Source of the DNA: Solibacillus sp. FSL R7-0668
Lineage (GTDB): Bacteria; Bacillota; Bacilli; Bacillales_A; Planococcaceae
Assembly: GCF_038006205.1 (NCBI RefSeq)
Contig: NZ_JBBOUU010000001.1
Span: 2,544,001 to 2,608,000 of the forward strand
DNA: 64,000 bases
Direction: 5' to 3'
A program made the translations under genes and the position numbers. The notes under the pieces are model-generated. The model searched no databases and was not told the origin of the DNA. It saw nothing but the letters and a program-made list of their open reading frames with translations. Shown one piece after another: positions 8,134 to 22,306 of the stretch (position 1 is the stretch's first letter; each line of letters begins with the position of its first letter).

Positions 8134-8151
8134 AGAAACGGAGTAATGGAA

Positions 8152-8727
8152 ATGACGAACTTAAAGCATCGATTCGGCATCGATATTGATGGAACAGTTA
8201 CATGCCCTGCTACATTGATCCCTCATATTAATAAGCAGTACAATATTAATATGACGTTAGAGGACGTAACAGATTACGACTTTTTAAGTGGCTTTCCATA
8301 TCCGATCGACCGCAACGAATTTAATACATGGTTCAAAGCGAACGAACCACATATGTATGAGGTGAGTGAGCTTGCACCAGATGCACAATCGGTCTTAACC
8401 AATTGGCAAAAACAGTACGAGTTATTTTATATTTCGGCTCGCGGTGAAAATGTATTTGATATTACGAAAAATTGGTTTGACACATACAAAGTCCCGTATG
8501 ACCATATTGAATGCATCGGGAGCCATAAGAAAATTGAAATAGCGAAAAAGCATCAAGTAGAAGCCTTTTTCGAAGACAAACATGATAACGCTGTAGAAAT
8601 TGCAGAGGAACTAAAAATTCCGGTTGTCCTATTTGACACACCATACAACCGATTAGCTGTACCAAACAACGTTATCCGCGTTGCAAACTGGCAACAAGCC
8701 AATGAATGGATTCGAAAAAACTTCTAA
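8152..8727 (+). CDS. yqfW: HAD-family putative 5'(3')-deoxyribonucleotidase-like protein (YqfW-like)
   Basis: About 191 aa. I use the second ATG (8152) because GGAG lies 8 bases before it; the first (8146) is only 2 bases away. HAD motif I is FGIDIDGTVT, with the nucleophile and general-acid Asp. Motif II is the Ser of YISARGE, the motif III Lys lies near SHKKIEIAKKH, and motif IV is AFFEDKHDNAVEIAE. The fold is that of NT5C-type phosphatases. B. subtilis yqfW, also close to ispG, is annotated as a putative nucleotidase. Substrate unknown. A second HAD protein of similar type is encoded at 35373-35918. Confidence 0.75.
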   Translation: MTNLKHRFGIDIDGTVTCPATLIPHINKQYNINMTLEDVTDYDFLSGFPYPIDRNEFNTWFKANEPHMYEVSELAPDAQSVLTNWQKQYELFYISARGENVFDITKNWFDTYKVPYDHIECIGSHKKIEIAKKHQVEAFFEDKHDNAVEIAEELKIPVVLFDTPYNRLAVPNNVIRVANWQQANEWIRKNF

Positions 8728-8790: not shown

Positions 8791-9606
8791 TTATGAAAAC
8801 AAGCTTCCATAGCCCGTAATCGTCGTCGCTAAATCTTCTCGATAATGATCGTCTAATGGGTTAAAGCTATTCACATTGACTTCATTGCCCCCCAAGGACG
8901 AATGAATGTATTGCTCATCCCCAATATACATGGCGACATGTCCCGGGAAGAAAATCAAATCCCCACGCTTTAACTGTTCACGTGTAATTTCTCGCAATGG
9001 AAAGCCATCCATAATTTTGGCATCGCGGTAAATATATGAACCATTTAACATATAAGCCATCGAGCATAGGCCTGAGCAATCGATACCAAGTGGCGACTTT
9101 CCACCCCAACGATACGGTGTGCCGATATAACGAAACGCTGTCTGCACAACTTGCTCACGGAATAACTCCTCATTGGCTGTATATACTTTTACTCGCTTTT
9201 GAAGCCAAGCTGAACGTACATAGCCAAATTGCCCAGTAACGAGCTGCACCTTCGTCCATGATCGTTCTAACCCTGCTTCTTCAATTACTTGAATAAATGC
9301 ACCGCGCGTTAATGTCAGAATCTTATCGCTTTGAATTTTCGGCCCCGTTAATACATCCGCAAAGCTTTGGTTCACAACATAATCTGCATCAGCAATCCAG
9401 CTTGAAATGATGGCTGTACCTATCGCTAAATCTGATTTTAACATATATCCCTCATAGCGATAAAATGTACGAACCTTTACCCACGCTTCATCCATATCCT
9501 CTAAAACCTCTACCGGCATCCCATACAATGCTTCATCCACTAACTCTGAATGACTGTCCGTTTTTTCATGTAAATTGGCAATCATCACTTTTACAACTGC
9601 ATTCAT
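8791..9606 (-). CDS. ykfC: Gamma-D-glutamyl-L-diamino acid endopeptidase (NlpC/P60, YkfC-like)
   Basis: 271 aa: two SH3b-like domains (about 1-60 and 70-140), then an NlpC/P60 cysteine peptidase domain (about 148-271). The catalytic Cys is in GIDCSGLCSMAY, the His in FPGHVAMYIG, and a third polar residue is the His of YIHSS, the C-H-H arrangement reported for the YkfC group. Such enzymes cut the gamma-D-Glu to diamino acid bond of murein peptides. No signal peptide is visible, so it should act in the cytosol on imported peptides. It is the last gene of the operon, and its ATG directly follows the stop codon of the preceding gene (TGAATG). Its product L-Ala-D-Glu would feed YkfB encoded upstream. 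Confidence 0.88.
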   Translation of the reverse strand: MNAVVKVMIANLHEKTDSHSELVDEALYGMPVEVLEDMDEAWVKVRTFYRYEGYMLKSDLAIGTAIISSWIADADYVVNQSFADVLTGPKIQSDKILTLTRGAFIQVIEEAGLERSWTKVQLVTGQFGYVRSAWLQKRVKVYTANEELFREQVVQTAFRYIGTPYRWGGKSPLGIDCSGLCSMAYMLNGSYIYRDAKIMDGFPLREITREQLKRGDLIFFPGHVAMYIGDEQYIHSSLGGNEVNVNSFNPLDDHYREDLATTITGYGSLFS

Positions 9607-10380
9607 TCACTTGACCTCCATCTCACTTTTCGCCTCATAAACGATTTTTGAAATTTGTCCGATTAAACGCTTTGCTTGCTCATTATCGGTTACTTCCGTA
9701 ATAAAGACCCCAATAAAATAGGCGCCTTTATTATGAAATACAATGCCACAATCATGATCAACCGTATCCAGCCCACCTGTTTTATGAGCTATTTTTACAT
9801 CATCGACTAGATAACGCTTTAAAGACTCATGGCTTCGCTGACGACATAAAATATTTAAGGCAACAGCCGTCCATGTAGCATTTAATAACTTTCCGTTATA
9901 AAGTGCTTCAAAGAGTTTTTGCATATCACGTGCTGTCGTTTCATTGTCAAAGCCTTGCTGCTGGCGCTCAAAGTCCATCATTTTACGCTGTACTTTTGTA
10001 TCGTGTAAACCAATCTCTTTAAAATACGCATTATACGCATCCATACCTAAATAATCGATACAAGCATTGGTCGCTGTATTATCACTGGTAATGGTCATCC
10101 ACAATAATAATTCATGTAATGTTGCACGCTTTTCTCCTTGCTCGGTAAGGACACTAAAATCCACAAAGTTTTCGTCAGCAATATCAATCATTCGCTGTAA
10201 ATCACCATTTGTCATTTGTAAATGCTTTAATATTGCAATTAAAATAGGGACCTTTATGACACTTGCACTACTAAATATATCAGAAGGCAGCTGCTCATAA
10301 ATTTCTCCGTTTGCATAGTGTTGCACGGAAACGTGGACTTTAAACGGGCTTTGGGCAATGATCTTTGTTAATTGTTCCAT
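9607..10380 (-). CDS. Cytoplasmic beta-lactamase-fold serine hydrolase lacking the class A general-base Glu
   Basis: 257 aa with all three penicillin-recognising motifs: S40-V-I-K43 (SxxK), S99-D-N101 (SDN) and K200-T-G202 (KTG). No signal peptide is seen, which is unusual because class A beta-lactamases are exported. After SDN, the expected Arg-x-Glu of the omega loop reads R132-K-M134, so the deacylating Glu166 equivalent appears to be Met. The protein is therefore unlikely to be an efficient beta-lactamase; a peptidase, amidase or esterase acting on murein peptides is more plausible in this operon (inference). It starts 5 bases after ykfA, and its stop directly abuts the ykfC start. Confidence 0.75.
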   Translation of the reverse strand: MEQLTKIIAQSPFKVHVSVQHYANGEIYEQLPSDIFSSASVIKVPILIAILKHLQMTNGDLQRMIDIADENFVDFSVLTEQGEKRATLHELLLWMTITSDNTATNACIDYLGMDAYNAYFKEIGLHDTKVQRKMMDFERQQQGFDNETTARDMQKLFEALYNGKLLNATWTAVALNILCRQRSHESLKRYLVDDVKIAHKTGGLDTVDHDCGIVFHNKGAYFIGVFITEVTDNEQAKRLIGQISKIVYEAKSEMEVK

Positions 10381-10385
10381 CGCCT

Positions 10386-11324
10386 TTACCCAATCACTTC
10401 AATCGTGTGATTCGTCGCATTAATTGTTACTGTTTTCCCTAGAGGTAGGGACATCGTTGGTAATACATGACCACAAGTGATGTCCGCTAAGACCGGAATA
10501 TTTAGAGGTGCTAAAATTTCTGCAAATACTTGCTCTAGTGTTAAATTATTGTCAGGATTTTTTGTATCCATCGGTCCACAATCTGTCCATGCGCCTAGCA
10601 TAATTCCGGCACATGCGTCTAATTTACCTGCTAGCTTTAATTGTGTCAGCATGCGATCGATACGCTGTACATTTTCGTCGATATCTTCTAAAAACAAGAT
10701 TTTCCCTGTAACGTCAATCTCATAAGGTGTGCCCAGTGAAGCGGCAACTAATGTTAAATTACCACCCGTTAAAATTCCTGTCGCTACTCCCGGTGTAATC
10801 GTCTGCATCTCTTCTCCCGATTTATTTTCCAGGAAATAATGCGCCCACTCTGTATTTGTTACACTGTTCACAAAATAGTCCCATGTGTAGTCATCCATCG
10901 CTGGCTTAATAAATTCGGTAGACGGCATCGGTGTATGATACGTCACAAAGCCACATTGTTGATTGAATACCATATGTAAAGCTGTCACATCACTATAGCC
11001 TGCAAATACTTTGGGGTTCTTTTGTATCATTTCTAAATCAAGCATCGGTAAAATACGTGTTGCGCCGTAGCCACCACGAATACAGAAAATTCCATCAATT
11101 GCGGGATTGGCAAACATTTCATTTACCTCTTTTGCTCGCAGCGCATCACTACCAGCTAAATAGCCGTGACGTGTGCGACAAGTTTCCCCAACAACGACGT
11201 TAAAACCTAATTTTTCTACCGCTTCAATCGCAGGCTGTAATCGCTCTGTTGGTGTAGCACCTGAAGCACTAATTAATGCAACGGTATCGCCTTTTTTCAA
11301 TGATCTTGGAATAATTAAGCTCAT
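10386..11324 (-). CDS. ykfA: Murein tetrapeptide LD-carboxypeptidase (S66, YkfA-like)
   Basis: 312 aa, full length for peptidase family S66. The nucleophile Ser is in AGYSDVTAL, the catalytic Glu in ILFLEDIDE and the catalytic His in [13 protein letters not shown]. The [13 protein letters not shown] block is characteristic. LD-carboxypeptidases remove the terminal D-Ala from murein tetrapeptides (L-Ala-gamma-D-Glu-diamino acid-D-Ala) in the cytoplasm; no signal peptide is present. The start overlaps the end of the upstream ATPase gene by 4 bp (ATGA). Together with YkfC and YkfB it forms the degradation branch of the operon. B. subtilis carries ykfA in the ykfABCD group next to dpp. Confidence 0.92.
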
Positions 11325-12274
11325 ACATTTGCCTCCTGACGTTCAATAATCGCACGATACGCTGCTTGTTCCTCTTGATTAGCTAATACAAAATGGCCTT
11401 CCTCAATTTCAACAAACTCCGGCGGATCTGTCTCATATTGGTGGACCGTTGGATCATATACTTGTAATTTTTTTTGACGCTCTTTAATTGGATTAGGCTC
11501 TGGAACTGCCGCTAATAATGCCTTTGTATAGGGGTGCAATGGGTTATTAAACAGCTTTTCCGTTTCGCCTAGCTCTACAATTCGCCCTTTATAAATGACC
11601 GCCGTTCGATCGGTAATAAAACGTACAATCGATAAATCATGCGCGATGAATAAATAGGTTAGGTCACGTTCCTGCTGTAAGCTAGAAAGCAAATTCAGCA
11701 CTTGCGCACGAATCGAAACATCTAGGGCTGAAATCGGCTCATCTGCTACAACAAACTCTGGCTCCATCACAAGTGCACGTGCAATACCAATTCGTTGACG
11801 CTGCCCCCCAGAGAATTCATGCGGGAAGCGGGAAGCAAATTCTGGTAGCAGCCCTACTTCTAGTAATGCTTTCTTTACCTTTTCAATGCGCTCTTGCTCA
11901 CTACTAAACTTCTTATTATTAATTAGACCTTCTGAAATAATATAATCCACCTTGGCACGTTCATTTAGTGACGCACCTGGATCTTGGAAAATCATTTGAA
12001 TTTTTTGCGTAATTTCTTTATCCCATGCACTCGAAATACGTCCGTTAATTTTTTTACCATGGAATAGGATTTCGCCGTTTGTGATGGGGTTAATGCGCAT
12101 AATGGCACGGCCGATTGTCGTTTTACCGGAACCGGATTCGCCTACTAAGCCAAATGTTTCCCCTTTATAAATATCAAAGCTGACATCATCGACTGCTTTG
12201 AATTCCTTTTTACCACTGCCAAAAATGATATCGATATTTTTGACTTCTATTAGCTTTTCACGTTCGTTACTCAT
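11321..12274 (-). CDS. ykfD: Oligopeptide/dipeptide ABC transporter ATP-binding protein (second ATPase)
   Basis: Start set at the ATG at 12274 ([16 protein letters not shown]) with GGGAG upstream; a longer frame to 12367 would run deep into dppD. About 317 aa. Walker A is [12 protein letters not shown], the signature is [15 protein letters not shown], and Walker B is [12 protein letters not shown], with a switch His in FIAHDLS. The C-terminal oligopeptide-transporter extension ([16 protein letters not shown]) identifies the Opp/Dpp subfamily. It pairs with DppD to drive the DppBC permease. Its start overlaps the dppD end by 8 bp and its stop overlaps the ykfA start by 4 bp. Position corresponds to YkfD of B. 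subtilis, equivalent to DppF elsewhere. Confidence 0.93.
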
Positions 12275-13313
12275 GCATATATCGTCTCCCTTCCGCAAAA
12301 AATGCTTGTAACACTTCTGGAGGCTCGACTTTCGGTGCTTTCGGGTCAAGTAGCCATGTCCGTGCAAAATGCGTATCCGTCACTTGGAAAAATGGTGGAC
12401 GTTCCACAAAATCAATTTTAAGTGCATATTGATTGCGCGGGGCAAATGCATCCCCTTTAATTTCTTTAAATAGGTTCGGCGGTGTTCCTTTAATGGAATA
12501 GAGTGCCTCTCCCTTGACACCAAGTTGCGGTAAAGAGGAAATTAACGCCCATGTATAAGGGTGCTTGGCATTAAAGAACACTTCATTCGTCTGCCCCACC
12601 TCAATAATATCCCCGGCATACATTACCGCAATTCGGTCTGCCACCTTTGCAACAACACCAAGGTCATGTGTAATGTAGATTGTCGTTAATAAATATTTTT
12701 CTTGTAGCGTTGTCAGCAGCTGTAAAATTTGCGCTTGAATCGTTACGTCAAGCGCAGTTGTTGGCTCATCACAAATTAAAATTTGCGGATTACATGCCAC
12801 CGCAATGGCAATGACGATTCGTTGACGCATCCCACCCGAAAATTCATGCGGATATTGCTTGTAACGGCGCTCTACATCATGAATGCCCACATCACGCAAG
12901 AGCTGTAATGTTGTTTCATAGGCATCCTTTCCTTTTAACCCTTGATGCAGCACGACACTTTCTTCAATTTGTTTCCCAATCGTTTTAAGCGGATTGAGCG
13001 ACGTCATCGGATCTTGCGTAACCATCGCAATCTTTTTACCACGAATTTTTAACCAATCCGCTTCTGTTTTAAACTGCGCTAAATCATGCCCATCATAGAC
13101 AATTTTGCCCGAATCGATATAGCCATTTTTGTCTAATAAGCCCATAATGGATTTGACCAATACCGATTTGCCCGAACCAGATTCCCCAACAATCGCTAGA
13201 CTTTCCCCTTTATATAAATCAAGTGAAATATCACGAATGGCCGTTAATGTTTGGCCACGTAATTTAAATTTAATAACGACATTTTCAATGGATAAAATCT
13301 TTTCTCGTTCCAT
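12267..13313 (-). CDS. dppD: Dipeptide ABC transporter ATP-binding protein DppD
   Basis: 348 aa with Walker [13 protein letters not shown], signature [15 protein letters not shown], Walker [13 protein letters not shown] and switch His in YITHDLG. The C-terminal peptide-transporter domain begins around [15 protein letters not shown], but the cysteines that bind an Fe-S cluster in some OppD/DppD proteins are not seen here. The start ATG follows GAAAGGATGG. It lies 15 bases after dppC and overlaps the next ATPase gene by 8 bp. It energises import of di- to oligopeptides; in this operon the cargo is probably murein-derived peptides. Confidence 0.93.
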
Positions 13314-13328
13314 ACAACGCCATCCTTT

Positions 13329-14303
13329 CTACACATGGTTTTTCGGATCCGCTGCATCTGCAAACGCATTTCCGATAATATAAAAGGCAATCGTAATGAC
13401 ACTTAGCACAATACTTGGGAAAATTAATTGATAACGTAAATCCGGTGACATCATCAGCACGCGACCTTCGTTAATTAAGTTTCCTAAAGATGGCTCACTT
13501 ACTGGTAAACCTAAACCAATATACGTTAAAAATACTTCCGCACCAATAGCAGCAGGAACCGCCAAGCTCATACGCAGCATAATGACTGAAATTAAATACG
13601 GCAATAAGTTTTTCAAAATAATTTTATAGCCGGGTGTTCCTAATGTTTTGGATGCTAAATTATACTCACGGTCACGTAAAATAACAATTTGATTCCTTAA
13701 GAAACGCGCCATCTCCACCCAGCCGGTAATACACATAGCGATAATAATTGTTGAAATGCCTGGACGTAAAATATACGCCATTAAAATTAAGACAATCGTC
13801 GTCGGAATATTATCTACAATGTTATACAGTTGCGTAATCGGCATTTCTAATTTTCGTGAATAGCCCCACAACGCACCGACCGTAAAGCCAATAATCACTT
13901 CAATAATGGCAACAGCAAAGCCGATAAATAAGGATGTCCGTGTACCTTGCCAAATACGCGACCATAAATCCTGACCAATCGAGTTTGTTCCGAAAATATA
14001 TTCTTCATTCGGGGCAACATTTCGATCCTGCATCCCCGTCTCCGCATTAAGATAAATTTGGGTAGGCGATTTTTGATCTGGTAAATAGGGTTGTATAAAG
14101 GTAAACGCAATTAATAACACCACAAAGAATAATAAAAATACGGCAATTTTATTTTTTGTAAAGGAACGGAATGTCGAACGCCAATACGAGTAATTCGAAT
14201 AAGCGGTTTCTTCTGCTTTTGCATCATCAACACCGGCAAATTCAAATAAATGCTCGTTCGATTTATCCGAAATATTTTGAATTTCTTTCGTAAATAAGCC
14301 CAT
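13329..14303 (-). CDS. dppC: Dipeptide ABC transporter permease DppC
   Basis: 324 aa. A cytoplasmic N-terminal stretch (about 1-50) precedes TM1 (about 55-75), an external OppC_N loop holding the NSIGQDLWSRIWQGTRTS block, and five further membrane segments. The EAA motif, which docks the ATPase, reads ASKTLGTPGYKIILKNLLPYL. Family: BPD_transp_1, DppC/OppC type. It shares 1 bp with the upstream dppB stop, so the two permease subunits are translationally coupled and should form a DppBC heterodimer in the membrane. Confidence 0.93.
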   Translation of the reverse strand: MGLFTKEIQNISDKSNEHLFEFAGVDDAKAEETAYSNYSYWRSTFRSFTKNKIAVFLLFFVVLLIAFTFIQPYLPDQKSPTQIYLNAETGMQDRNVAPNEEYIFGTNSIGQDLWSRIWQGTRTSLFIGFAVAIIEVIIGFTVGALWGYSRKLEMPITQLYNIVDNIPTTIVLILMAYILRPGISTIIIAMCITGWVEMARFLRNQIVILRDREYNLASKTLGTPGYKIILKNLLPYLISVIMLRMSLAVPAAIGAEVFLTYIGLGLPVSEPSLGNLINEGRVLMMSPDLRYQLIFPSIVLSVITIAFYIIGNAFADAADPKNHV

Positions 14304-15247
14304 TAGCGCACACTGTCTCCCTTCCCTAGCTTAATTCGAGGATCAACAATGGCCATCAGTAAGTCCCCTAAAATAAGCCCTATAATCCCTAACGAAGAAA
14401 ACACAAGAACTAATCCTTGCACGACGTTATTATCTTGTCGCTGAATCGCATCTACTAACAAGCCACCCATGCCAGGAATTGAGAATAATGATTCAATATA
14501 AATCGAACCTGTAATTGTAAATAAAATCGTAGCTGGTAAATATTGCGCCATCGGAATAAAAGCATTTCGCATCACATGTCGGAACATGATTGTACGCTCC
14601 TTTACCCCTTTAGCACGTGCCAATTTAATGTAATCCTTGTTCAACTCATCGACCATATAACGACGCATCCACATTGCATAGGACGCAATCGGACCAAGCG
14701 CTAGACAAATTAACGGTAAGATGAAGCTCTTCGTATTGTATTCATCAAATAGCATCGGTAATCCGAGCCAATCTGAAATATACATCTGGATCATTAAGAA
14801 ATAAACCATTGCCGGCACCGCTACAATAATGACGATGTAGCCTGTTCCAAGTCGATCTAGCCAGCGCCCTTTAAATTGCGCCATTAATATCCCTAGTGGT
14901 ACACCTACTAAAAGTGAAAGCGCCACCGCCCCTAAACCAAATAAAATAGAATACATCATTTTATCTGCAATAATATCTACAACTGGAACATCTGTACGAT
15001 ATGTAATCGACTTTCCTAAATCCCCTTGGAATAAATTCACATAAAAGTTTTTCAACTGTACAAGGAGTGGATCACGTAAGCCCAAATTCGTTAAATATAC
15101 CTCTTGTTGTTCCGGCGACATTTTTTCTGCTGCTGCCCCTAAATAGCCTTCATCTGGCATTAGACGTAGTAGGGAAAAAACAATCGTAATAATAATAAAT
15201 AGCGTGAAAATCGATTGCACAATACGTTTGGTAAGATACTTTAACAT
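14303..15247 (-). CDS. dppB: Dipeptide ABC transporter permease DppB
   Basis: 314 aa. TM1 spans about 10-30 (QSIFTLFIIITIVFSLLRLMP), then an external region with the typical LGLRDPLLVQLKNFYVNLFQGDLGKSI block (shown in part: LGLRDPLLVQL). Five more membrane helices follow, with the EAA loop ARAKGVKERTIMFRHVMRNA. This is the DppB/OppB half of the permease. The start ATG has GGAGGG upstream. It lies 95 bases after dppE, the largest gap inside the operon, and that gap holds a hairpin that may let the binding protein be made in excess. Confidence 0.93.
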   Translation of the reverse strand: MLKYLTKRIVQSIFTLFIIITIVFSLLRLMPDEGYLGAAAEKMSPEQQEVYLTNLGLRDPLLVQLKNFYVNLFQGDLGKSITYRTDVPVVDIIADKMMYSILFGLGAVALSLLVGVPLGILMAQFKGRWLDRLGTGYIVIIVAVPAMVYFLMIQMYISDWLGLPMLFDEYNTKSFILPLICLALGPIASYAMWMRRYMVDELNKDYIKLARAKGVKERTIMFRHVMRNAFIPMAQYLPATILFTITGSIYIESLFSIPGMGGLLVDAIQRQDNNVVQGLVLVFSSLGIIGLILGDLLMAIVDPRIKLGKGDSVR

Positions 15248-15278
15248 GCGATTCCCTCCTTACATTTAAAATACGAAA

Positions 15279-15308
15279 GGAGATGCAGAAAAAAATTCTG
15301 TCATCTCC
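15279..15308 (-). other. Hairpin in the dppE-dppB gap
   Basis: GGAGATGCAGAA (15279-15290) pairs with TTCTGTCATCTCC (15296-15308), with one bulged base and a 5-nt loop. On the coding strand only a weak T-rich stretch follows, so it is more likely an mRNA 3'-end stabiliser or partial terminator than a full stop. Confidence 0.55.
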
Positions 15309-15342
15309 TGACGTTACTACATGTTAAAAGCGCATTAAGAAA

Positions 15343-17172
15343 TTACTTTGAAGCGTTCGCTAAAGCTTCTGCACGTTCTTTTTCCCATGCCTCTTTAGCT
15401 GATTTATACTCTTCATTGCTCATTGGCTTTTCTAGGATAGACTGACCTTTAAATTTCTCAGATGTGACACCAAATGGCGAATATTGTGATTCGAATGGGT
15501 TTAATTTCGAAGCGACATAGCCGCCACCGCCAACAGCGTAAGGAATGACGAATGCTTCTTCAATTAAGAATGCCTCTGCTTTTGCAAATAGTTCATAGCG
15601 TTTTGCTGGATCCACTTCTGCTTTTGCAGCTTCTACTAACTTATCGTATTCACCGTTATATCCTTCTGCTAACTCAGGCTTGTTATAAGTACCACCTGTC
15701 GTGAATGGATCTGTATACGTTGATGGGTCAGCAAAGTCAGGACCCCAGTTTGCTTCGATCATCGCGAATTTACCTGGACGACGAACTTCCCCTAAGAAGC
15801 CTGTCGCTGGACCAGCAAATAATTCTACATCGATGTAATCTGCACCTAATAAGTTTTCAAGCTGTTGCTCTACGACTTGTGAGCGATTTGCCCATTCAGG
15901 TGAACCCGAGTTATAAGGTAATACTAATTTCACTGGGAATGTTGCTTTTCCTGCTAAAGCAGTCATTGCCGCTTCTTTATGCTGGATAGCTAAATCTTTA
16001 TTAAATGAATCCGTTTCTGTAATTGCTTTTAATGGCTCTAAAACTGTGTAATCTACACCGGCAACGTCCACGAAGTTTTTCGGTGTAATCGTGTTTGATA
16101 CTAAATCTTGCGGGTTGTATGGCTCAATTGTTAACAGCGCCGATACTCGGTCTAATGCATGGTACAGTGATTTACGGAAATCTTTGTTGTTCACTGCGAC
16201 TTTCCAGTTTTCTGGCTGACTCTCTGCATCAAATTGTGGATCAAAGTTTAATGCATAGAAATATGTGTAGAAGTTATTTGTATTTTGACGTACTAACTCT
16301 TTTTTGTCCTCCGCATTTAACCATTCATCTAAAATAGATGTTGGAATGCTTGCGCCGTCAATTTCGCCACGTAAAAATAACTCAGGTGCTACTGTTGCTG
16401 CCTCTTTGTTATATTTATAGCGAATACGGTCGATTTTTACATTGTCTTTATCCCAGTACGTATCATTTTTCACAAGCACACGCTCATTTTGAGGCTCAAA
16501 TTTGTCTAAAATATACGCTCCGTTGTATAAGAAATTATCCGCAGTTGTACCGAAAGCCTCGCCCTTTTCTGCTAAGAACGCTCCGTTAACCGGGAAGAAA
16601 CATACGTAGTTCAGCATTGATAAGAAATAAGGTGTAGAGCCTTCTAATGTGTACTCTAGTGTATAGTCATCTACTGCCTTTACCCCAACTTGCGAGAAGT
16701 CTGTTACTTCTTCGTTGTAGAAAGCGTCACCATTTTTTACAACAGTAGCAATCCATGCTGTTGAAGATTCATTTTTCGCATCAAGCACGTAGTTTAATCC
16801 GTCTACGAAGTCTTGTGCTACAACATCAGCCACTTCTTTTCCTTGATTGTCTACCCATTTCACGCCTTCACGTAATTTGAATGTCCAAACCGATGCATCT
16901 GCATTTGCCTCCCAGCTTTCTGCTAAACCTGGTTGTACAACACCATATTGATCATATTCAATTAATCCGTCTACTAAGTTTGCCGCTACTGCGAACTCAT
17001 TTGTTTCTGAAGTTTTTAAGTAATTTAATGTTTTAATTTCACCAGAATACACTGTGCGGTACTCTTGTGGTTTGCCTGAATCGCCATCCTTGCCTGAATC
17101 AGCTGAATCATCGCTACAAGCAGCTAAAACGAATGCAAACATACATGCTAAAGCTAATAAATATTTTTTCAT
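15343..17172 (-). CDS. dppE: Peptide ABC transporter substrate-binding lipoprotein DppE
   Basis: Start chosen at the ATG at 17172 (MKKYLLALACMFAF) with GGGGGAAA upstream; two earlier in-frame ATGs precede or overlap this site. About 609 aa. A type II signal peptide ends in the lipobox LAAC (Cys at about residue 19), followed by an acidic Ser/Asp linker. The SBP_bac_5 family region runs from about 40 to 590, with the landmarks LAESWEANADASVWTFKLREG (in part LAESWEANADASVW) and EANWGPDFADPSTY. Anchored outside the cell, it delivers peptides to DppBC. It lies 43 bases after ykfB, within the catabolic genes. At roughly 610 aa it is longer than B. subtilis DppE. Confidence 0.92.
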   Translation of the reverse strand: MKKYLLALACMFAFVLAACSDDSADSGKDGDSGKPQEYRTVYSGEIKTLNYLKTSETNEFAVAANLVDGLIEYDQYGVVQPGLAESWEANADASVWTFKLREGVKWVDNQGKEVADVVAQDFVDGLNYVLDAKNESSTAWIATVVKNGDAFYNEEVTDFSQVGVKAVDDYTLEYTLEGSTPYFLSMLNYVCFFPVNGAFLAEKGEAFGTTADNFLYNGAYILDKFEPQNERVLVKNDTYWDKDNVKIDRIRYKYNKEAATVAPELFLRGEIDGASIPTSILDEWLNAEDKKELVRQNTNNFYTYFYALNFDPQFDAESQPENWKVAVNNKDFRKSLYHALDRVSALLTIEPYNPQDLVSNTITPKNFVDVAGVDYTVLEPLKAITETDSFNKDLAIQHKEAAMTALAGKATFPVKLVLPYNSGSPEWANRSQVVEQQLENLLGADYIDVELFAGPATGFLGEVRRPGKFAMIEANWGPDFADPSTYTDPFTTGGTYNKPELAEGYNGEYDKLVEAAKAEVDPAKRYELFAKAEAFLIEEAFVIPYAVGGGGYVASKLNPFESQYSPFGVTSEKFKGQSILEKPMSNEEYKSAKEAWEKERAEALANASK

Positions 17173-17215
17173 GTACTTTTCCCCCATCATTTTCTTTTTC
17201 TTGGCTTCTAGGAGC

Positions 17216-18283
17216 CTATAGTAAAAATCCTAAACCGGCGCGTTCAACCATTTGAATTGTTTCCCCCTCAAAAATAGGTCCACCGTTTATCGGATCTTTA
17301 ACACAAAGACTAGGTCCATCTAAATCGACCATTGTAACGATTTTGTTTGCTGCCGCAAAATGTGCTGCCGCGCTCACGCTAATTTTCGTTTCGAGCATAC
17401 AGCCAATCATACATTCCACTCCGCTAGCCTGTGCGATATTCGCAATTTGCTGCGCCTTTGAAATGCCCCCTGTTTTCATCAGCTTAATATTTATTAAATC
17501 CGCCGCACGCTTTTCGATGACCTCGATGGCCTGCTTCGGTGAAAACACACTTTCATCTGCCAATATTGGCGTTTGTGTGTGATTGGTCACATACTGCATC
17601 CCAACCACATCACTATAATGGACAGGCTGTTCAACTAATTCCATTTGCACCCCTGCATCTTCTAATTGACCAATTATGGATACAGCCTGTTTCGGTGTCC
17701 AGCCTTGATTTGCATCAATTCGTAGCCCAATTTGAGGACCTACTGCTTCGTGAATTTTTAAAATGCGGTTCACATCCCCAGTCGGATCCTTTCCTACTTT
17801 AACCTTCAAAATAGAAAAGCCGCGTTTCACTGCCGCTAAGCTATCTTGCACCATTTCCGGATGCTCATTGACACTAATCGTAATGTCTGTAGTCAATGAT
17901 TTCCGATAGCCCCCGAGCAATTCGTAAAGAGGCGCATTATATTTCTTCGCCCACAAATCATAAAGTGCGATTTCAACAGCGGCCTTTGCACTTGTATTTT
18001 GGTATAAGCAGCTGTCTACAAGCTCACATAAAGCCGCAATTTCTGCCAAATCCATTCCTTTAAGGAGTGGTGCAATGACTTGTTCAATTGCATACTGAAT
18101 CGATCCAAGTGTTTCACCGGTGATGACATGCGTTGGTGCAGCTTCACCAATGCCTATTTGGCCATCATCCGTGTGAATGGTCACCATCACATTTTGTATA
18201 CTATGCACCGTGCGTAAAGCCGTCTTAAATGGCGTAATAAGGGGCGCTTCTACTAAACTTACTTTGACATCTGTAATTTTCAT
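17216..18283 (-). CDS. ykfB: L-Ala-D/L-Glu epimerase (enolase superfamily, YkfB-like)
   Basis: 355 aa, muconate-lactonising subgroup of the enolase superfamily. The catalytic KxK is in LKVKVG, metal ligands are the Asp of IDANQGW, Glu of LVEQP and Asp of ADESVF, the second catalytic Lys is in NIKLMKTGG, and DLDGP near the C-terminus is the dipeptide-recognition motif of Ala-Glu epimerases. The enzyme converts L-Ala-D-Glu into L-Ala-L-Glu, which ordinary peptidases can hydrolyse. It starts 13 bases after dppA. Substrate assignment rests on motif and operon context with YkfC, which releases L-Ala-D-Glu. Confidence 0.93.
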   Translation of the reverse strand: MKITDVKVSLVEAPLITPFKTALRTVHSIQNVMVTIHTDDGQIGIGEAAPTHVITGETLGSIQYAIEQVIAPLLKGMDLAEIAALCELVDSCLYQNTSAKAAVEIALYDLWAKKYNAPLYELLGGYRKSLTTDITISVNEHPEMVQDSLAAVKRGFSILKVKVGKDPTGDVNRILKIHEAVGPQIGLRIDANQGWTPKQAVSIIGQLEDAGVQMELVEQPVHYSDVVGMQYVTNHTQTPILADESVFSPKQAIEVIEKRAADLINIKLMKTGGISKAQQIANIAQASGVECMIGCMLETKISVSAAAHFAAANKIVTMVDLDGPSLCVKDPINGGPIFEGETIQMVERAGLGFLL

Positions 18284-18296
18284 GCTGTCACCTGCT

Positions 18297-19091
18297 TTAT
18301 GTTAAAAATTGTAGTATCCGTAGCACTTCGAAAAAATCATCCGTTTCAAACACTACGGTATTATGCGCCTTAAATGTGGCACCCGGATAAAATGAATTAC
18401 GATACGCCTTAATATGATCTTTATAAATAATTTCTACGTGAAAATGCTCTGGCAATTCAAGTTGTAGCTGTTCACGCTCTATTTTCATTGCTTGCTCGAT
18501 TAATGCCTTCGTTTCTTTCAAGGTCTTTTGAGGACTGACATTAATTGTCGCATGCCCAACGCCCTCTTTCGTCGCAAACGTCACGATTTTTTCATTGAAG
18601 CGTGCAATATGTTCTGTCAGTGCTTGATCCCCACTAACAAAAGCTACAGGCACTTTATGAAGCGCTGCCGCATAAGCATTAATAATAAATTCACTTGCAT
18701 AGTCTCCATTAATTTTCACATCAGCTAATAAACTTAATGTATGAGCAAGCGGATTTTTTGCACTGCCTCCTTCACTGTGATACCCAATAAAAATCGCTCG
18801 GTCAAAGCTGTCATCAAGTCCCGCGACCATACACATCGGTTCTTGTGTCCAACCGCGAATGATTTTCACATTTTCCGGCAATTGTTCTATTAAAATATTT
18901 CGCGCTGAATCATGCGCATCCTTTAATAGAATTTCTGTAGCGCCACCTGCAATCGCACCTTCAATTGCAGCAAGCACCTCTTTTGTCATTTGCTTTTGAA
19001 ATTGAAGATAGTCTGGTGAATTTAATTCGGTTTCACTCCAAACCGTCGTTCCTGTAATCCCTTCGATGTCTGCGCTAATATATACTTTCAT
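18297..19091 (-). CDS. dppA: D-aminopeptidase DppA (family M55)
   Basis: 264 aa, full length for M55. Zinc ligands expected from B. subtilis DppA are visible: Asp8 and Glu10 in SADIEG, His in LKDAHDS, His in GYHSEGG and Glu in YASEFIIN. The enzyme is a self-compartmentalising decamer that releases N-terminal D-amino acids and prefers D-Ala-D-Ala and D-Ala-Gly-Gly. It acts in the cytoplasm; no signal peptide. Its start overlaps the end of the D-Ala-D-Ala dipeptidase gene by 4 bp, so two enzymes with overlapping substrate range are co-translated. In B. subtilis dppA is the first gene of dppABCDE. Confidence 0.94.
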   Translation of the reverse strand: MKVYISADIEGITGTTVWSETELNSPDYLQFQKQMTKEVLAAIEGAIAGGATEILLKDAHDSARNILIEQLPENVKIIRGWTQEPMCMVAGLDDSFDRAIFIGYHSEGGSAKNPLAHTLSLLADVKINGDYASEFIINAYAAALHKVPVAFVSGDQALTEHIARFNEKIVTFATKEGVGHATINVSPQKTLKETKALIEQAMKIEREQLQLELPEHFHVEIIYKDHIKAYRNSFYPGATFKAHNTVVFETDDFFEVLRILQFLT

Positions 19092-19837
19092 TTATATCGA
19101 TACTCCTTTAGCTCATGGTTTTCGATTGTGGCAATGATTGGTCCATAAATGGCATGAGGCGCTTTTGATTTTCTTGCCCATGTGACATTTCCAAAATCAA
19201 AATGCCACCATTCTTCCTCATAATTGTGAAAGCCCGCATCCGTCATACTATGAAATAGCAGCCTACGATTTTTTAAAGCATCTGTATTTTCAGTTAAATG
19301 ACTCTCGAAATAGGCCGTTGCCGATTTAGCACATGTTTCATCGAATGCCGTTCCTAAATCAAGTGGATTCCCTTCAGCGTCACCCAATGTAACATCAATC
19401 GCTCCACCCGTTAAATGGGGAGCGGGATATTGAAAATCCACACTTGGAAATGCGACATATTTCAATGTTTCCGCTTCAATTTGCTGTTCATTCCAGCTCG
19501 GATTGCTCAAAGTTATTTCACGCTTAAATTGCTCATACAACGCTTGCTGCACTTGTAGCGGTCTAAAGCCGTCATACACAATAAGGCTATAGGCGTTTGG
19601 CAAATATTGAAGTGCCTGCAATAATCGATTGGCTGCCTGCTCACGTAAATAGATGACTTGTAAACTATCAGTAATGCGCTGTTGATAATAGCTAGGTTTG
19701 ATAAAAAGTCGTTTATTGATTGGCTCCAGCTTGATTAAAGACTCTTGATTATCCAAAATAGGTGGTCGCTCGCCTGTACCAATTATTATTTGAATTGGCT
19801 GTAAGTATTTTTCTAAAATTGTTTTGCACCCCACCAT
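19088..19837 (-). CDS. ddpX: D-alanyl-D-alanine dipeptidase (VanX/DdpX family, M15D)
   Basis: 249 aa. Zinc-site motifs: His and Asp in PHLTGGAIDVTLGD; catalytic Glu and third His ligand in EEEWWHFDFG. An Arg in YDGFRPLQVQQALY matches the active-site Arg of VanX. The enzyme hydrolyses D-Ala-D-Ala. No vanH, vanA or vanRS genes are present, so the role here is nutritional recycling, as for E. coli DdpX in its ddp transport operon, not vancomycin resistance (inference). It is the first gene of the operon. The ATG at 19837 has no clear ribosome-binding site; GGTGGGG lies just inside the gene, so the exact start is uncertain. Confidence 0.85.
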   Translation of the reverse strand: MVGCKTILEKYLQPIQIIIGTGERPPILDNQESLIKLEPINKRLFIKPSYYQQRITDSLQVIYLREQAANRLLQALQYLPNAYSLIVYDGFRPLQVQQALYEQFKREITLSNPSWNEQQIEAETLKYVAFPSVDFQYPAPHLTGGAIDVTLGDAEGNPLDLGTAFDETCAKSATAYFESHLTENTDALKNRRLLFHSMTDAGFHNYEEEWWHFDFGNVTWARKSKAPHAIYGPIIATIENHELKEYRYK

Positions 19838-19928
19838 ATGTAAATTAAATTATCAACAGAAAAATGATAACATTTAGATTTTTCAGTTTATTTATCTAAA
19901 ATACCATAATTATTTCGAATGCGGAAGT

Positions 19929-19943
19929 TATTTATTGAAAATT
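19929..19943 (-). promoter_or_regulatory. Candidate CodY box upstream of the ddpX-ykfC operon
   Basis: On the minus strand AATTTTCAATAAATA matches the CodY consensus AATTTTCWGAAAATT at 12 of 15 positions, about 90 bases before the ddpX start. CodY represses dpp in B. subtilis. AT-rich DNA gives such matches by chance, so this is tentative. Confidence 0.35.
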
Positions 19944-20047
19944 CATTACTATTATTGTATTTATTTGGTTTATAACCATAAGTTAGGGTTTTCTTGCAGA
20001 TTGATTAAAACGTGATTTCAAATTAGAAAACAATGGATGGTTTTGGG

Positions 20048-20140
20048 AAATCGCACGGATAAAAGCTAATATCGCACGGAAATTTAAAAAATCGCACGTA
20101 TCTGCGTAAAATCGCACATAAACTCGAAAAATTCGCACAC
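20048..20140. repeat. Array of five TCGCAC repeats at 20-21 bp spacing
   Basis: The 397-base gap between ddpX and the S58 peptidase gene holds TCGCAC at 20051, 20072, 20092, 20112 and 20133, each usually preceded by AAAA/ATA. Steps are 21, 20, 20 and 21 bp, close to two helical turns, so all copies face one side of the DNA. The DNA between them is AT-rich and not conserved. No coding frame uses them consistently because the period is not a multiple of 3. The rest of the gap (19838-20040) is AT-rich and contains the presumed operon promoter, which I could not place with confidence. Confidence 0.8.
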
Positions 20141-20234
20141 AAAAAAATTTCGCGAGCACTGCCACCCAAAGAGCCTTGCAATCGCCTATCTTAAGCCATT
20201 TACTAACGTTTTCCTCAAAGCAGCTATCCTCACC

Positions 20235-21278
20235 TTAAAAATCGAATGGATACCTTTTCACGCAGTGCCCTTGTCTGCCAATTGTTGTTTCTGCTTGTGT
20301 AAGTGAATTTAAAATGGCCTCTTCTGTTGCCTCTGCAGCCGCTGTAAATAATAAATTCATCATCGGCTGATCATCTCGTAATTGGACACGTGTCTCGAGC
20401 ATTGCTTCACTTTGATGCGGTATTTGATGGGCTGTTGAAAAGCCAATGACAATATCGCCACTACCATTGGAAAAATGACTACCCGTACGTCCTAGCCCAA
20501 TACCGCAGCGCTTGATTACACGCTTTAATTGGCGATTGCTTAATGGGGCATCTGTCGCCAATACAATGATAATGGAGCCATCTGTTGGCGCAATTGTAGA
20601 ATTTTGTGCCTCTGTGTTTACGTGGTAGCGTTCCTTCATAAATTCCTCCGTCGTCCCAAAATTACTTAAGACAAGGCAACCTACTGTATAGCGTAAGTTT
20701 TCAGCTTCAACTATTCGTGAAGCACTGCCAATCCCCCCTTTATATCCAAAACAAATCATTCCCTTTCCCGCTCCGACCGCGCCCTCTGTTACAAGTTCTG
20801 TCGTCGCATTTTCAATTGCTCCAATAGCATGTGCTGGTGTTACAGAGCAATGACGAATCGAATTTAAATGGCTATCATTGCATTCTCCGACCACGATATT
20901 AACCGTCCCTGTCGTCAAACCAATTTCCTCATTTTGTGCTAATACATACTGTAGGGTACCTTGCGTAACAGCAGGCACACTAAATGTATTTGTCAGCATA
21001 ATAGGTGATTCTAAAACCCCTAGCTCATCAACCTGTACAAGCCCCGTTGTTTTGCCAAAACCATTCAGCACATAGCTCGCAGCGGTCACCTTTTCGCGGA
21101 AAAGATTCCCTCCATGCGGTAAAATCGCCGTCACACCTGTACAAGCAACATCACCTTTTTCGTTTAGCGGATAATCCAATGTTACATGCCCTACTTTGAC
21201 ACCCGCTACATCCGTAATACAATTTTTTTCACCTGAAGTTAACTTGCCTATCTTTACACCTAATTGTTGAATTTTCAT
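20235..21278 (-). CDS. P1-family peptidase (S58, DmpA-like L-aminopeptidase/D-esterase)
   Basis: 347 aa, whole-length match to the S58/DmpA family. These Ntn-like hydrolases self-cleave before a Ser that becomes the nucleophile of the beta chain; here it is probably the Ser of TDGSIIIVLATDAPL. Other landmarks: the opening ITDVAGVKVGHVTL, TGVTAILPHGG, VVGECNDSHLN, GAVGAGKGM and GRTGSHFSNGSGDIVIGF. Family members release N-terminal L-residues or hydrolyse D-amino acid amides and esters. It lies upstream of and in the same direction as the murein-peptide operon but 397 bases away, so it is probably a separate unit. The start ATG follows AAAGGAGAACG. Confidence 0.88.
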   Translation of the reverse strand: MKIQQLGVKIGKLTSGEKNCITDVAGVKVGHVTLDYPLNEKGDVACTGVTAILPHGGNLFREKVTAASYVLNGFGKTTGLVQVDELGVLESPIMLTNTFSVPAVTQGTLQYVLAQNEEIGLTTGTVNIVVGECNDSHLNSIRHCSVTPAHAIGAIENATTELVTEGAVGAGKGMICFGYKGGIGSASRIVEAENLRYTVGCLVLSNFGTTEEFMKERYHVNTEAQNSTIAPTDGSIIIVLATDAPLSNRQLKRVIKRCGIGLGRTGSHFSNGSGDIVIGFSTAHQIPHQSEAMLETRVQLRDDQPMMNLLFTAAAEATEEAILNSLTQAETTIGRQGHCVKRYPFDF

Positions 21279-21350
21279 GTCGTTCTCCTTTTCATATGTA
21301 AATTCTATCCAACTCTATCATAATCAACATGTTTTGATTTGAATAGCAAC

Positions 21351-21391
21351 AAAAAAGGAATTTGCCTTTACGAACAAAGACAAATTCCTTT
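21351..21391 (-). terminator. Terminator of the 42-aa ORF gene
   Basis: An 11-bp perfect stem (21354-21364 with 21381-21391) is followed on the minus strand by a T run, 47 bases after the stop codon of the small gene at 21438-21566. Confidence 0.65.
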
Positions 21392-21437
21392 ACGTATCTT
21401 GAAATGGTGTTTGATTCCAAAGCAACATCATCATTGA

Positions 21438-21566
21438 CTAGATTTCTAATATCCCTCTCGACCAACGATCTACAAAGCTTTCGAACGTAATGCCGTATTT
21501 ATTGTACACTTCATGATAAACAAAATAAATACCGAGCTTATCTAATACTTCATCATTAATTCTCAT
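21438..21566 (-). CDS. Small hypothetical protein, 42 aa
   Basis: The frame is open to 21650, but the ATG at 21566 (MRINDEVLDKLGIYFVYHEV) has a strong AAAGGAG 7-8 bases upstream, while the earlier codons have none. The product is 42 aa, soluble and mixed charge (KYGITFESFVDRW near the C-terminus). A terminator follows, which supports a real transcript. I do not recognise the family. The ATG is about 255 bases from the divergent lipoprotein gene. Confidence 0.5.
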   Translation of the reverse strand: MRINDEVLDKLGIYFVYHEVYNKYGITFESFVDRWSRGILEI

Positions 21567-21820
21567 CGTACCAGCTCCTTTATTCTTCATTACGACGATG
21601 ATGATTGAGCCCATTTCATTGCGATACAGTAATACTTTAATCATACCCAATGATTTAATTTAATATTCAATCCATGCAATCAAGAGTAAAATATTATTCC
21701 TTTCTTTATCCCCTTTCATCTCGTTACAAATTTTTCACATTCTCATCAGAAATCAACCACTTATTGGGATTGCATTTTAGTATGATAAAACTGTGGATAA
21801 AGTTTGATGGAGGGAATGGG

Positions 21821-22306
21821 ATGAGAAAGTTTTTAGCATTGCTGCTAGCAGTTACCCTTTTAACAGGCTGCAGTGATACGATGAAGGATATTAAAGATGC
21901 GGCGGCAGGTATTAACTCCAAGGCAACTGAAGCTGCTACTGCGATTTCGATTGATGTCCATTCAATTCGAGCGATTGAATTAGCATTTGACAACAAGCAA
22001 GTGGCAATTAACGACTTATTTAAAACTATATTACGTGATGTGCAATGGCATTATGACGAGTCAGCGAACATATTAAAAATTTCAGGTACATGGAAGAACA
22101 ATCAGCTTTTTTCTGAACAGTATTTTACCGAACAGCAAAAGCAGCAGATAATAGAAAATGGCAAAGTAACCATTCAGTTACATTTCGTCGACAATCAATT
22201 ATTAGAGTCCAAAACAGCCGCACAGCTAACCTTACATAACGAGTTGCTTGTCGATTTGCAAGGCGAGCAACTATTACAGCATTTTTACGACGTTTTTAAA
22301 AATTAA
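21821..22306 (+). CDS. Small lipoprotein of unknown function
   Basis: 161 aa from the ATG at 21821, preceded by GGAGGG; the frame extends further upstream to 21674 but without a ribosome site. A signal peptide (MRKFLALLLAVTLLTGCSD) ends in the lipobox LTGC with Cys at residue 17, so the protein is membrane-anchored and faces outside. The mature part begins with a helical segment (MKDIKDAAAGINSKATEAA), followed by a mixed alpha/beta region with LHFVDNQLLESKTAAQLTLHNELLVDLQG (in part LHFVDNQLLES). No known domain recognised. A terminator follows closely, so it is probably monocistronic. Confidence 0.75.
   Translation: MRKFLALLLAVTLLTGCSDTMKDIKDAAAGINSKATEAATAISIDVHSIRAIELAFDNKQVAINDLFKTILRDVQWHYDESANILKISGTWKNNQLFSEQYFTEQQKQQIIENGKVTIQLHFVDNQLLESKTAAQLTLHNELLVDLQGEQLLQHFYDVFKN

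Follow-up and report, generated by a model that had tools for sequence, protein, structure and literature searches.

A 64,000-nucleotide stretch of the Solibacillus sp. FSL R7-0668 genome (contig NZ_JBBOUU010000001.1, positions 2,544,001 to 2,608,000; hereafter, the window) carries an eleven-gene cluster that combines a peptide importer with enzymes of murein-peptide families (Table 1). Salvage of such peptides in Gram-positive bacteria is usually modelled on one operon, dppABCDE–ykfABCD of B. subtilis. As judged from its sequence relationships, the window operon is a separately assembled counterpart of dpp–ykf that is shared with clostridia, and not an enlarged version of it.

All eleven open reading frames of the operon are uninterrupted and lie on the minus strand, from position 19837 down to 8791. 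For nine of them, the Pfam families (M15, M55, MR_MLE, SBP_bac_5, two BPD_transp_1, S66, Beta-lactamase2 and SH3 plus NlpC/P60) agree with the assigned names, and the two ATPases were recognized in an NCBIfam scan only, as OppD- and OppF-like with scores under the curated cut-offs. The original prediction, made from the letters of the window, had described eleven same-strand genes forming an uptake-plus-degradation operon with named murein-peptide enzymes; the reading frames and the domain and structure matches bear this out. Its count of seven junctions out of ten that overlap or span less than 10 bp falls to six on recomputation: ddpX/dppA −4, dppA/ykfB 13, ykfB/substrate-binding protein (SBP) 25, SBP/permB 95, permB/permC −1, permC/dppD 15, dppD/ykfD −8, ykfD/ykfA −4, ykfA/hydrolase 5 and hydrolase/ykfC 0 bp. 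The overlap of −8 is counted from ATG 12274, which is probably the start of ykfD, and not from TTG 12367. This spacing, together with a conserved element before the first gene, gives indirect support to a putative single transcript. The neighbouring gene downstream is convergent (8146–8727, plus strand). A promoter and terminator scan returned fewer sites than in shuffled sequence (35 versus 44.9; 7 versus 13.3) and listed no terminator-like site directly after ykfC, and Rfam gave no match within 15200–22000.

Table 1. Features of the window operon and of the region upstream of it (positions within the window).
Feature	Position	Strand	Basis and remarks
ddpX, VanX/DdpX-type M15 D-Ala-D-Ala dipeptidase	19088..19819	-	PF01427; 1r44 VanX E 2.6e-7; probable AUU start 19819-19817, ATG ORF from 19837
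dppA, M55 D-aminopeptidase	18297..19091	-	PF04951; full-length alignment with 1hi9 'dipeptide transport protein DppA'
ykfB, L-Ala-D/L-Glu epimerase	17216..18283	-	1jpm, E 2.8e-113
Ami/Ali-type oligopeptide-binding lipoprotein (earlier name DppE)	15343..17190	-	AliC/AmiA scores, tree; LAAC lipobox
permease B, OppB-like	14303..15247	-	PF00528/PF19300; tree
permease C, OppC-like	13329..14303	-	PF00528/PF12911
ATPase, OppD-like (earlier name DppD)	12267..13313	-	NCBIfam below cut-off; tree
ATPase, OppF-like (earlier name YkfD)	11321..12274	-	NCBIfam below cut-off; start corrected to ATG 12274
ykfA, S66 LD-carboxypeptidase	10386..11324	-	PF02016/PF17676; matches MccF and muramoyltetrapeptide carboxypeptidase entries
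class-A-beta-lactamase-fold serine hydrolase, without Glu166 equivalent, no visible signal peptide	9607..10380	-	PF13354; alignment; AF2 (AlphaFold2) model; fold matches
ykfC, SH3b-NlpC/P60 gamma-D-Glu-diamino acid endopeptidase, DPP VI (dipeptidyl-peptidase VI) branch	8791..9606	-	PF00877 and SH3; PDB matches 3npf, 3pvq
S58 (DmpA/BapA-type) aminopeptidase gene	20235..21278	-	PF03576; phmmer
conserved 15-bp element 5′ of operon	19869..19883	-	AAAAATCTAAATGTT in window; AATTATCTAAAAATT in several relatives

The same operon occurs in 30 of 121 genomes of the family (the window's included) and in 5 of 19 genera, among them Solibacillus, Lysinibacillus and Ureibacillus; related operons are found in clostridia. 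In the 29 loci besides the window, dppA and ykfC are present in all, the importer, ykfA, the hydrolase and the upstream S58 gene in 28, ykfB in 25 and ddpX in 24. The recurrence of the block in a further 29 genomes of the family, albeit with local losses, shows that it is not a chance array. This comparison of operon content, which had been proposed with the original prediction, thus upholds the operon as a recurrent unit and qualifies its membership, ddpX being the patchiest gene. The epimerase gene ykfB is absent from the operon in four loci (L108, L111, L112 and L113); ddpX is absent in L093–L095 and L118 and has an in-frame stop in L113. Within the window's genus, a close ddpX is present in 9 of 16 genomes and a distant one in 1 more. 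In L101 (genome G048), the importer, ykfA and the hydrolase are gone as one block, leaving ddpX–dppA–ykfB–ykfC.

The genes of the window-type operon, which we term type II, differ from the canonical dppABCDE–ykfABCD genes in both order and ancestry. The order dppA-B-C-D-E-ykfA-B-C-D, unlike that of the window, is found in nine loci of sister genera (L120–L128; L126 is cut before dppA) and in L212 of Neobacillus thermocopriae. Against these ten canonical loci, the window proteins show identities of 25–28% (SBP), 30–36% (permeases), 45–54% (ATPases), 36–39% (YkfA), 48–52% (YkfB) and 29–32% (DppA). The corresponding median identities to clostridial-type loci, which include some unrelated transporter copies, are 44% (SBP), 55–62% (permeases), 68–72% (ATPases), 49% (YkfA), 56% (YkfB) and 45% (DppA). 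Seven trees (permB, SBP, dppA, ykfA, ykfB, ykfC and dppD), which were quick, unrooted and supported by Shimodaira–Hasegawa-like approximate likelihood-ratio tests (SH-aLRT), sampled the window and the canonical loci together with 11 of the 29 family loci and 17 to 21 of 57 other loci. All seven separate canonical from type II genes and group the window genes with clostridial operons. The clostridial rows on the canonical side are Lutispora-type loci (dppA and ykfB), Tissierella (ykfA) and unrelated Opp copies (transporter trees). Approximately unbiased (AU) tests, with groups defined after the trees had been seen, reject a single Bacilli clade for ykfB (p 0.00018), ykfA (p 0.0057) and dppA (p 0.00028). 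The window operon thus has the DppA, YkfA, YkfB and YkfC enzyme families of the canonical operon and neither its gene order nor orthologues of its DppBCDE-type transporter. The original prediction of an operon larger than the B. subtilis unit is therefore not borne out as a statement of relationship. In the 13 of the 30 type II genomes that were searched, the operon's own M55 gene is the sole M55 gene, and none of the 13 has a canonical DppA.

The gene between ykfA and ykfC encodes a hydrolase that had been regarded, together with the VanX-type dipeptidase, as one of two additions to the known set; it proves instead to be a core member (28 of the 29 related loci). The patchy gene is ddpX (24 of 29). 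In a scan of named genomes, the best 80 of 548 relatives of the hydrolase were kept, comprising 22 within the group and 58 beyond it. Most of the latter bear clostridial titles; some are from Erysipelotrichaceae, one is from Neobacillus and two are from Omnitrophota. A same-strand homologue of a murein enzyme lies in the fetched stretch at 42 of the 58, ykfC lies directly 3′ at 30 of the 58, and both a murein enzyme and an importer are nearby at 26 of the 58. The accompanying importers are of type II, of another Opp type (L162) or canonical: in N. thermocopriae, the hydrolase gene comes after ykfD and closes an operon that is canonical in all other respects. A Lutispora set has the order bla–ykfB–ykfC–dppA. 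Because the hydrolase occurs with several different importers, it is linked with the murein enzymes and not with any single transporter. Six clostridial operons (L166, L168, L170, L186, L193 and L201) have one or two more hydrolase-like open reading frames near their ends, 26–35% identical to that of the window.

The active site of the hydrolase was compared in an alignment (A2) of the window protein with those of 44 of the 80 kept loci. The class A β-lactamase motifs SxxK, SDN and KxG occur in 45 of 45 sequences (KTG in 39, K-S-G or K-P-G in 6), the first two being partly fixed by the search patterns. At the position of the deacylating Glu166, set by alignment to GNCA4-2 and the penicillin-binding protein PBP-A, all 45 have a methionine (Met134 in the window), and Asp136 is likewise invariant; Met134, Asp136 and KxG were not in the patterns. 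The AF2 model of the window protein has a predicted local distance difference test (pLDDT) score of 95.4, and its Foldseek ranks 1 to 7 are PBP-A entries (2j8y, 2jbf, 2j9o and 2j7v among them), with a template-modelling (TM) score of 0.90 and 25–27% identity. In the sequence alignment, Leu158 of PBP-A lies opposite Met134 and Asp160 opposite Asp136, and L158E entries mark the same position. PBP-A, the TLL2115 protein of Thermosynechococcus, is a DD-peptidase. No signal peptide is visible in the hydrolase N-termini, which were read by eye. These features suggest that the hydrolase is a cytosolic DD-carboxypeptidase that would trim imported pentapeptides before YkfA, YkfC and YkfB act. Alternatively, it might be an esterase, a D-aminopeptidase, a true β-lactamase that deacylates by a different route or a protein that senses penicillin, since many class A β-lactamases come close to PBP-A in their fit to the model (TM about 0.87–0.90). 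We regard this group of functions as possible, if the less favoured choice: Met replaces Glu166 in 45 of 45 sequences, the best fold match is PBP-A, the gene adjoins ykfA and ykfC, and a DD role would fill the sole trimming step that the other enzymes lack.

The importer had been named DppBCD/YkfD/DppE in the original prediction, a name that does not hold: the transporter genes are only distantly related to the canonical ones, and the binding protein is nearer to pneumococcal AliC (bit score 249.6) and AmiA (246.5) than to DppE (163.5) or OppA entries. Nor does the importer derive from duplication of a local Opp system, since the four further permB-like genes found in the genome share 28–32% identity with that of the operon. 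The kin of this binding protein are named oligopeptide-binding, and the cluster could accordingly serve the import of oligopeptides in general, its various peptidases scavenging nitrogen, with murein peptides taken up incidentally. This seems unlikely to us, because LD-carboxypeptidase, L-Ala-D-Glu epimerase, γ-D-Glu endopeptidase and D-Ala-D-Ala dipeptidase families co-occur in the clostridial loci as well, and the chemistry of these four families is murein-specific.

We favour murein peptides as the intended substrates and regard the pathway proposed in the original prediction as sound in outline. In the proposed route, the Ami/Ali-type importer would take up free stem peptides, and the PBP-A-like hydrolase would remove the last D-Ala of pentapeptides in the cytosol. 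YkfA would then remove the D-Ala at the fourth position and YkfC would cut L-Ala-D-Glu from the diamino acid, and epimerization of this dipeptide by YkfB would allow ordinary dipeptidases to finish. DppA and DdpX would handle D-Ala-D-Ala and other D-peptides.

Biochemical data probably already exist for the YkfC step. The protein has SH3b and NlpC/P60 domains with the catalytic Cys and His and, as read in the sequence, no signal peptide, and its closest PDB structures (3npf and 3pvq) are named dipeptidyl-peptidase VI. In L. sphaericus 2362, the operon ykfC is the only full-length match, other matches spanning the NlpC domain only. A published description notes an insertion in BcYkfC (PMC2954226); the 271-residue length of the operon YkfC fits the lack of that insertion.

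The start codon of ddpX was analysed in 32 distinct sequences (the window's included), leaving out L113 and L159, which share the same broken gene with its in-frame stop. The encoded proteins have intact zinc-site motifs in 32 of 32, and alignment with 1r44 shows the zinc ligands and the catalytic Glu expected of VanX/DdpX (M15) enzymes. In 29 of the 32, from Solibacillus, Lysinibacillus and Ureibacillus, a Shine–Dalgarno sequence is followed 5–11 nt on (mostly 6–8) by ATT, ATA or ATC; the other three (L106, L107 and L114) have ATG. The figure of 29 combines 20 sequences with ATT/ATA/ATC in the aligned column and 9 with another codon there that have ATT/ATA/ATC one codon on, as judged by eye. 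Beside the ATN codon, L112 has a TTG and L148 an ATG. In 14 of the 32 ddpX sequences, the stretch from the upstream in-frame stop to the first conserved residue contains no ATG, GTG or TTG; among 279 sequences of eight control genes from these loci, 1 lacks such a codon. A canonical start with a Shine–Dalgarno sequence is lacking in 28 of 32 ddpX sequences, compared with 19 of 279 controls (hydrolase 14, ykfA 4 and ykfB 1). SBP, permC and ykfD were dropped as controls because conservation in their alignments begins already in upstream or overlapping sequence (18/36, 36/36 and 13/36 'without start'). A Shine–Dalgarno scan made a poor control, as it chose internal Ile codons in dppA, and the argument that only ATN codons occur in the column was left unused, since any conserved isoleucine satisfies it.

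These results suggest that the window ddpX probably starts at ATT 19819 and not at ATG 19837, which gives a predicted N-terminus of MLEKYLQ in place of MVGCKT. The strict pattern of no canonical start, a spaced Shine–Dalgarno sequence and conservation is confined to the 14 sequences, and that of the window is not among them. The gene infC, a textbook case of a non-canonical start, has the same GGAGGTG-7nt-ATT layout in this genome. Initiation at an upstream ATG, GTG or TTG, with the AUU layout a coincidence of a conserved isoleucine, draws on the in-frame ATG six codons upstream in the window and on the invariant Ile columns that are common inside other operon genes. We consider it improbable in view of the two differences from the controls (14/32 versus 1/279 and 28/32 versus 19/279) and of the ATG that L106, L107 and L114 carry at the aligned position.

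Use of the AUU codon would have a plausible purpose. In a study of S. aureus, infC starts with AUA, and the non-canonical starts of cvfC1, ccpN and citZ yield about 10% of the AUG output in poor medium, with ccpN reaching up to 30% in rich medium (PMC13009471). A second source calls DdpX activity potentially lethal (PMC6403190). By analogy, the AUU-class layout of ddpX, the low output of such starts and the potential lethality of the enzyme together make it plausible that the weak start throttles an enzyme that destroys D-Ala-D-Ala. Weak translation of ddpX would protect the cell's own D-Ala-D-Ala pool, and the overlapping dppA may share this restraint.

Upstream of the operon, 28 of the 29 loci have an S58 gene, with a gap to the first gene of 148–943 bp in those 28 and of 397 bp in the window; it is probably its own transcription unit. 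Like the unusual start of ddpX, this conserved neighbour had escaped the original prediction. Its best phmmer match is 2drh 'D-aminopeptidase', followed by D-aminopeptidase, aminopeptidase and β-peptidyl aminopeptidase entries. S58 genes also lie close to three of the hydrolase loci, on the same strand at L206 and on the opposite strand at L173 and L194. A strong 17-pair terminator-like hairpin lies upstream of the window S58 gene (21354–21391, minus strand), and the gap between S58 and ddpX holds a short imperfect tandem repeat (20087–20143, period 20, 2.8 copies, GTGCGATTTTT units) for which no role was found.

The conserved 15-bp element lies 8–109 bp before the first gene of the operon, and before dppA where ddpX is absent. 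Its expectation-maximization (EM) score, from 21 of the 30 upstream regions and with a seed taken from the data, is 227, compared with 139–155 in 8 mononucleotide shuffles. For 26 of 29 loci, the element is the highest-scoring site anywhere in the locus; among the 15 loci outside the matrix training, some of which closely resemble training loci, the figure is 12. A site agreeing with the CodY box at 13 of 15 positions is found in the upstream region of six relatives, and in five of these it is the element itself. In the window, consensus matches to the CodY box number 15 versus 12.5 expected and so show no enrichment. The genome encodes CodY, and B. subtilis dpp is CodY-controlled; such control of the window operon is only a suggestion.

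Taken together, the evidence points, with a probability of about two in three, to a self-contained operon for the use of cell-wall stem peptides that is built from another gene lineage than B. subtilis dpp–ykf and acts through the steps proposed above. Several points speak against this reading. The trees were quick, with long branches flagged for permB and SBP, and the AU groups were chosen with the trees in view. No murein enzyme is present at 16 of the 58 outside-group hydrolase loci, several of them on short contigs; the SxxK and SDN counts owe something to the search patterns; and the modelled fold alone does not separate PBP-A from β-lactamase function. An in-frame ATG, GTG or TTG lies upstream in 18 of 32 ddpX sequences, including that of the window (ATG 19837, for which no Shine–Dalgarno sequence was found). 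The route is incomplete in some species, as L108 and L111–L113 are without ykfB, and the operon offers no explanation for the removal of side-chain residues on Lys-type walls. Finally, by our own count, the window copy of the 15-bp element matches the CodY box at only 9 of 15 positions; this poor box and the limited discrimination of the fold match slightly lowered our confidence. By contrast, the earlier view of a B. subtilis dpp–ykf operon that has been rearranged and enlarged by two genes, for all the shared enzyme families and the identity of YkfB to its canonical counterparts, is very improbable given the seven trees and three AU tests, SBP and permease identities of only 25–36%, a different gene order and the canonical operons held by the sister genera.

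A broader proposition, on which we are evenly divided, is that Bacillota hold a second, independently assembled system for murein-peptide salvage, which is centred on a cytosolic DD-carboxypeptidase of the penicillin-binding type, restrains its DdpX through a conserved AUU, AUA or AUC start codon so that the precursor pool is spared, and replaces canonical dpp–ykf here. Our literature search found no title or abstract describing this operon type, subscription journals being largely beyond its reach. A second lineage in Planococcaceae and clostridia (including titles from gut samples) would offer a route to genes that have been read only as oligopeptide permease or β-lactamase, and hydrolase genes of this type could be mistaken for β-lactam resistance genes. 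If the assignments are correct, a cytosolic enzyme of the penicillin-binding type would be an unusual place for this fold, and the conserved AUU start of a D-Ala-D-Ala dipeptidase would be a rare weak start codon with an obvious purpose.

Among known systems, B. subtilis dppABCDE–ykfABCD is likewise a single operon that joins an ABC peptide importer with enzymes of the DppA, YkfA, YkfB and YkfC families. The window differs in the lineage of its transporter and enzymes, in gene order and in a YkfC of the DPP VI branch, and it adds the PBP-A-like hydrolase, ddpX and the linked S58 gene. Dipeptidyl-peptidase VI of Bacillus (Lysinibacillus) sphaericus (C40) is an SH3–NlpC/P60 protein whose name the best PDB matches of the operon YkfC carry; the two may be identical. 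PBP-A (2j7v and 2j8y) has the class A β-lactamase fold with Leu158 where β-lactamases have Glu166 and the hydrolase has Met134; the hydrolase differs in its 26% identity, its place in a murein-salvage operon and its lack of a visible signal peptide. In the E. coli ddpXABCDF operon, a VanX-type dipeptidase gene adjoins a peptide ABC importer, as it does in the window; to our knowledge that operon has no ykf enzymes, and it is a separate assembly. Finally, in S. aureus infC, ccpN, cvfC1 and citZ, an AUU or AUA start is paired with a strong Shine–Dalgarno sequence and is conserved for cvfC1 and ccpN (PMC13009471), a layout that ddpX resembles while being another gene, one that encodes an enzyme described as potentially lethal in its activity (PMC6403190).

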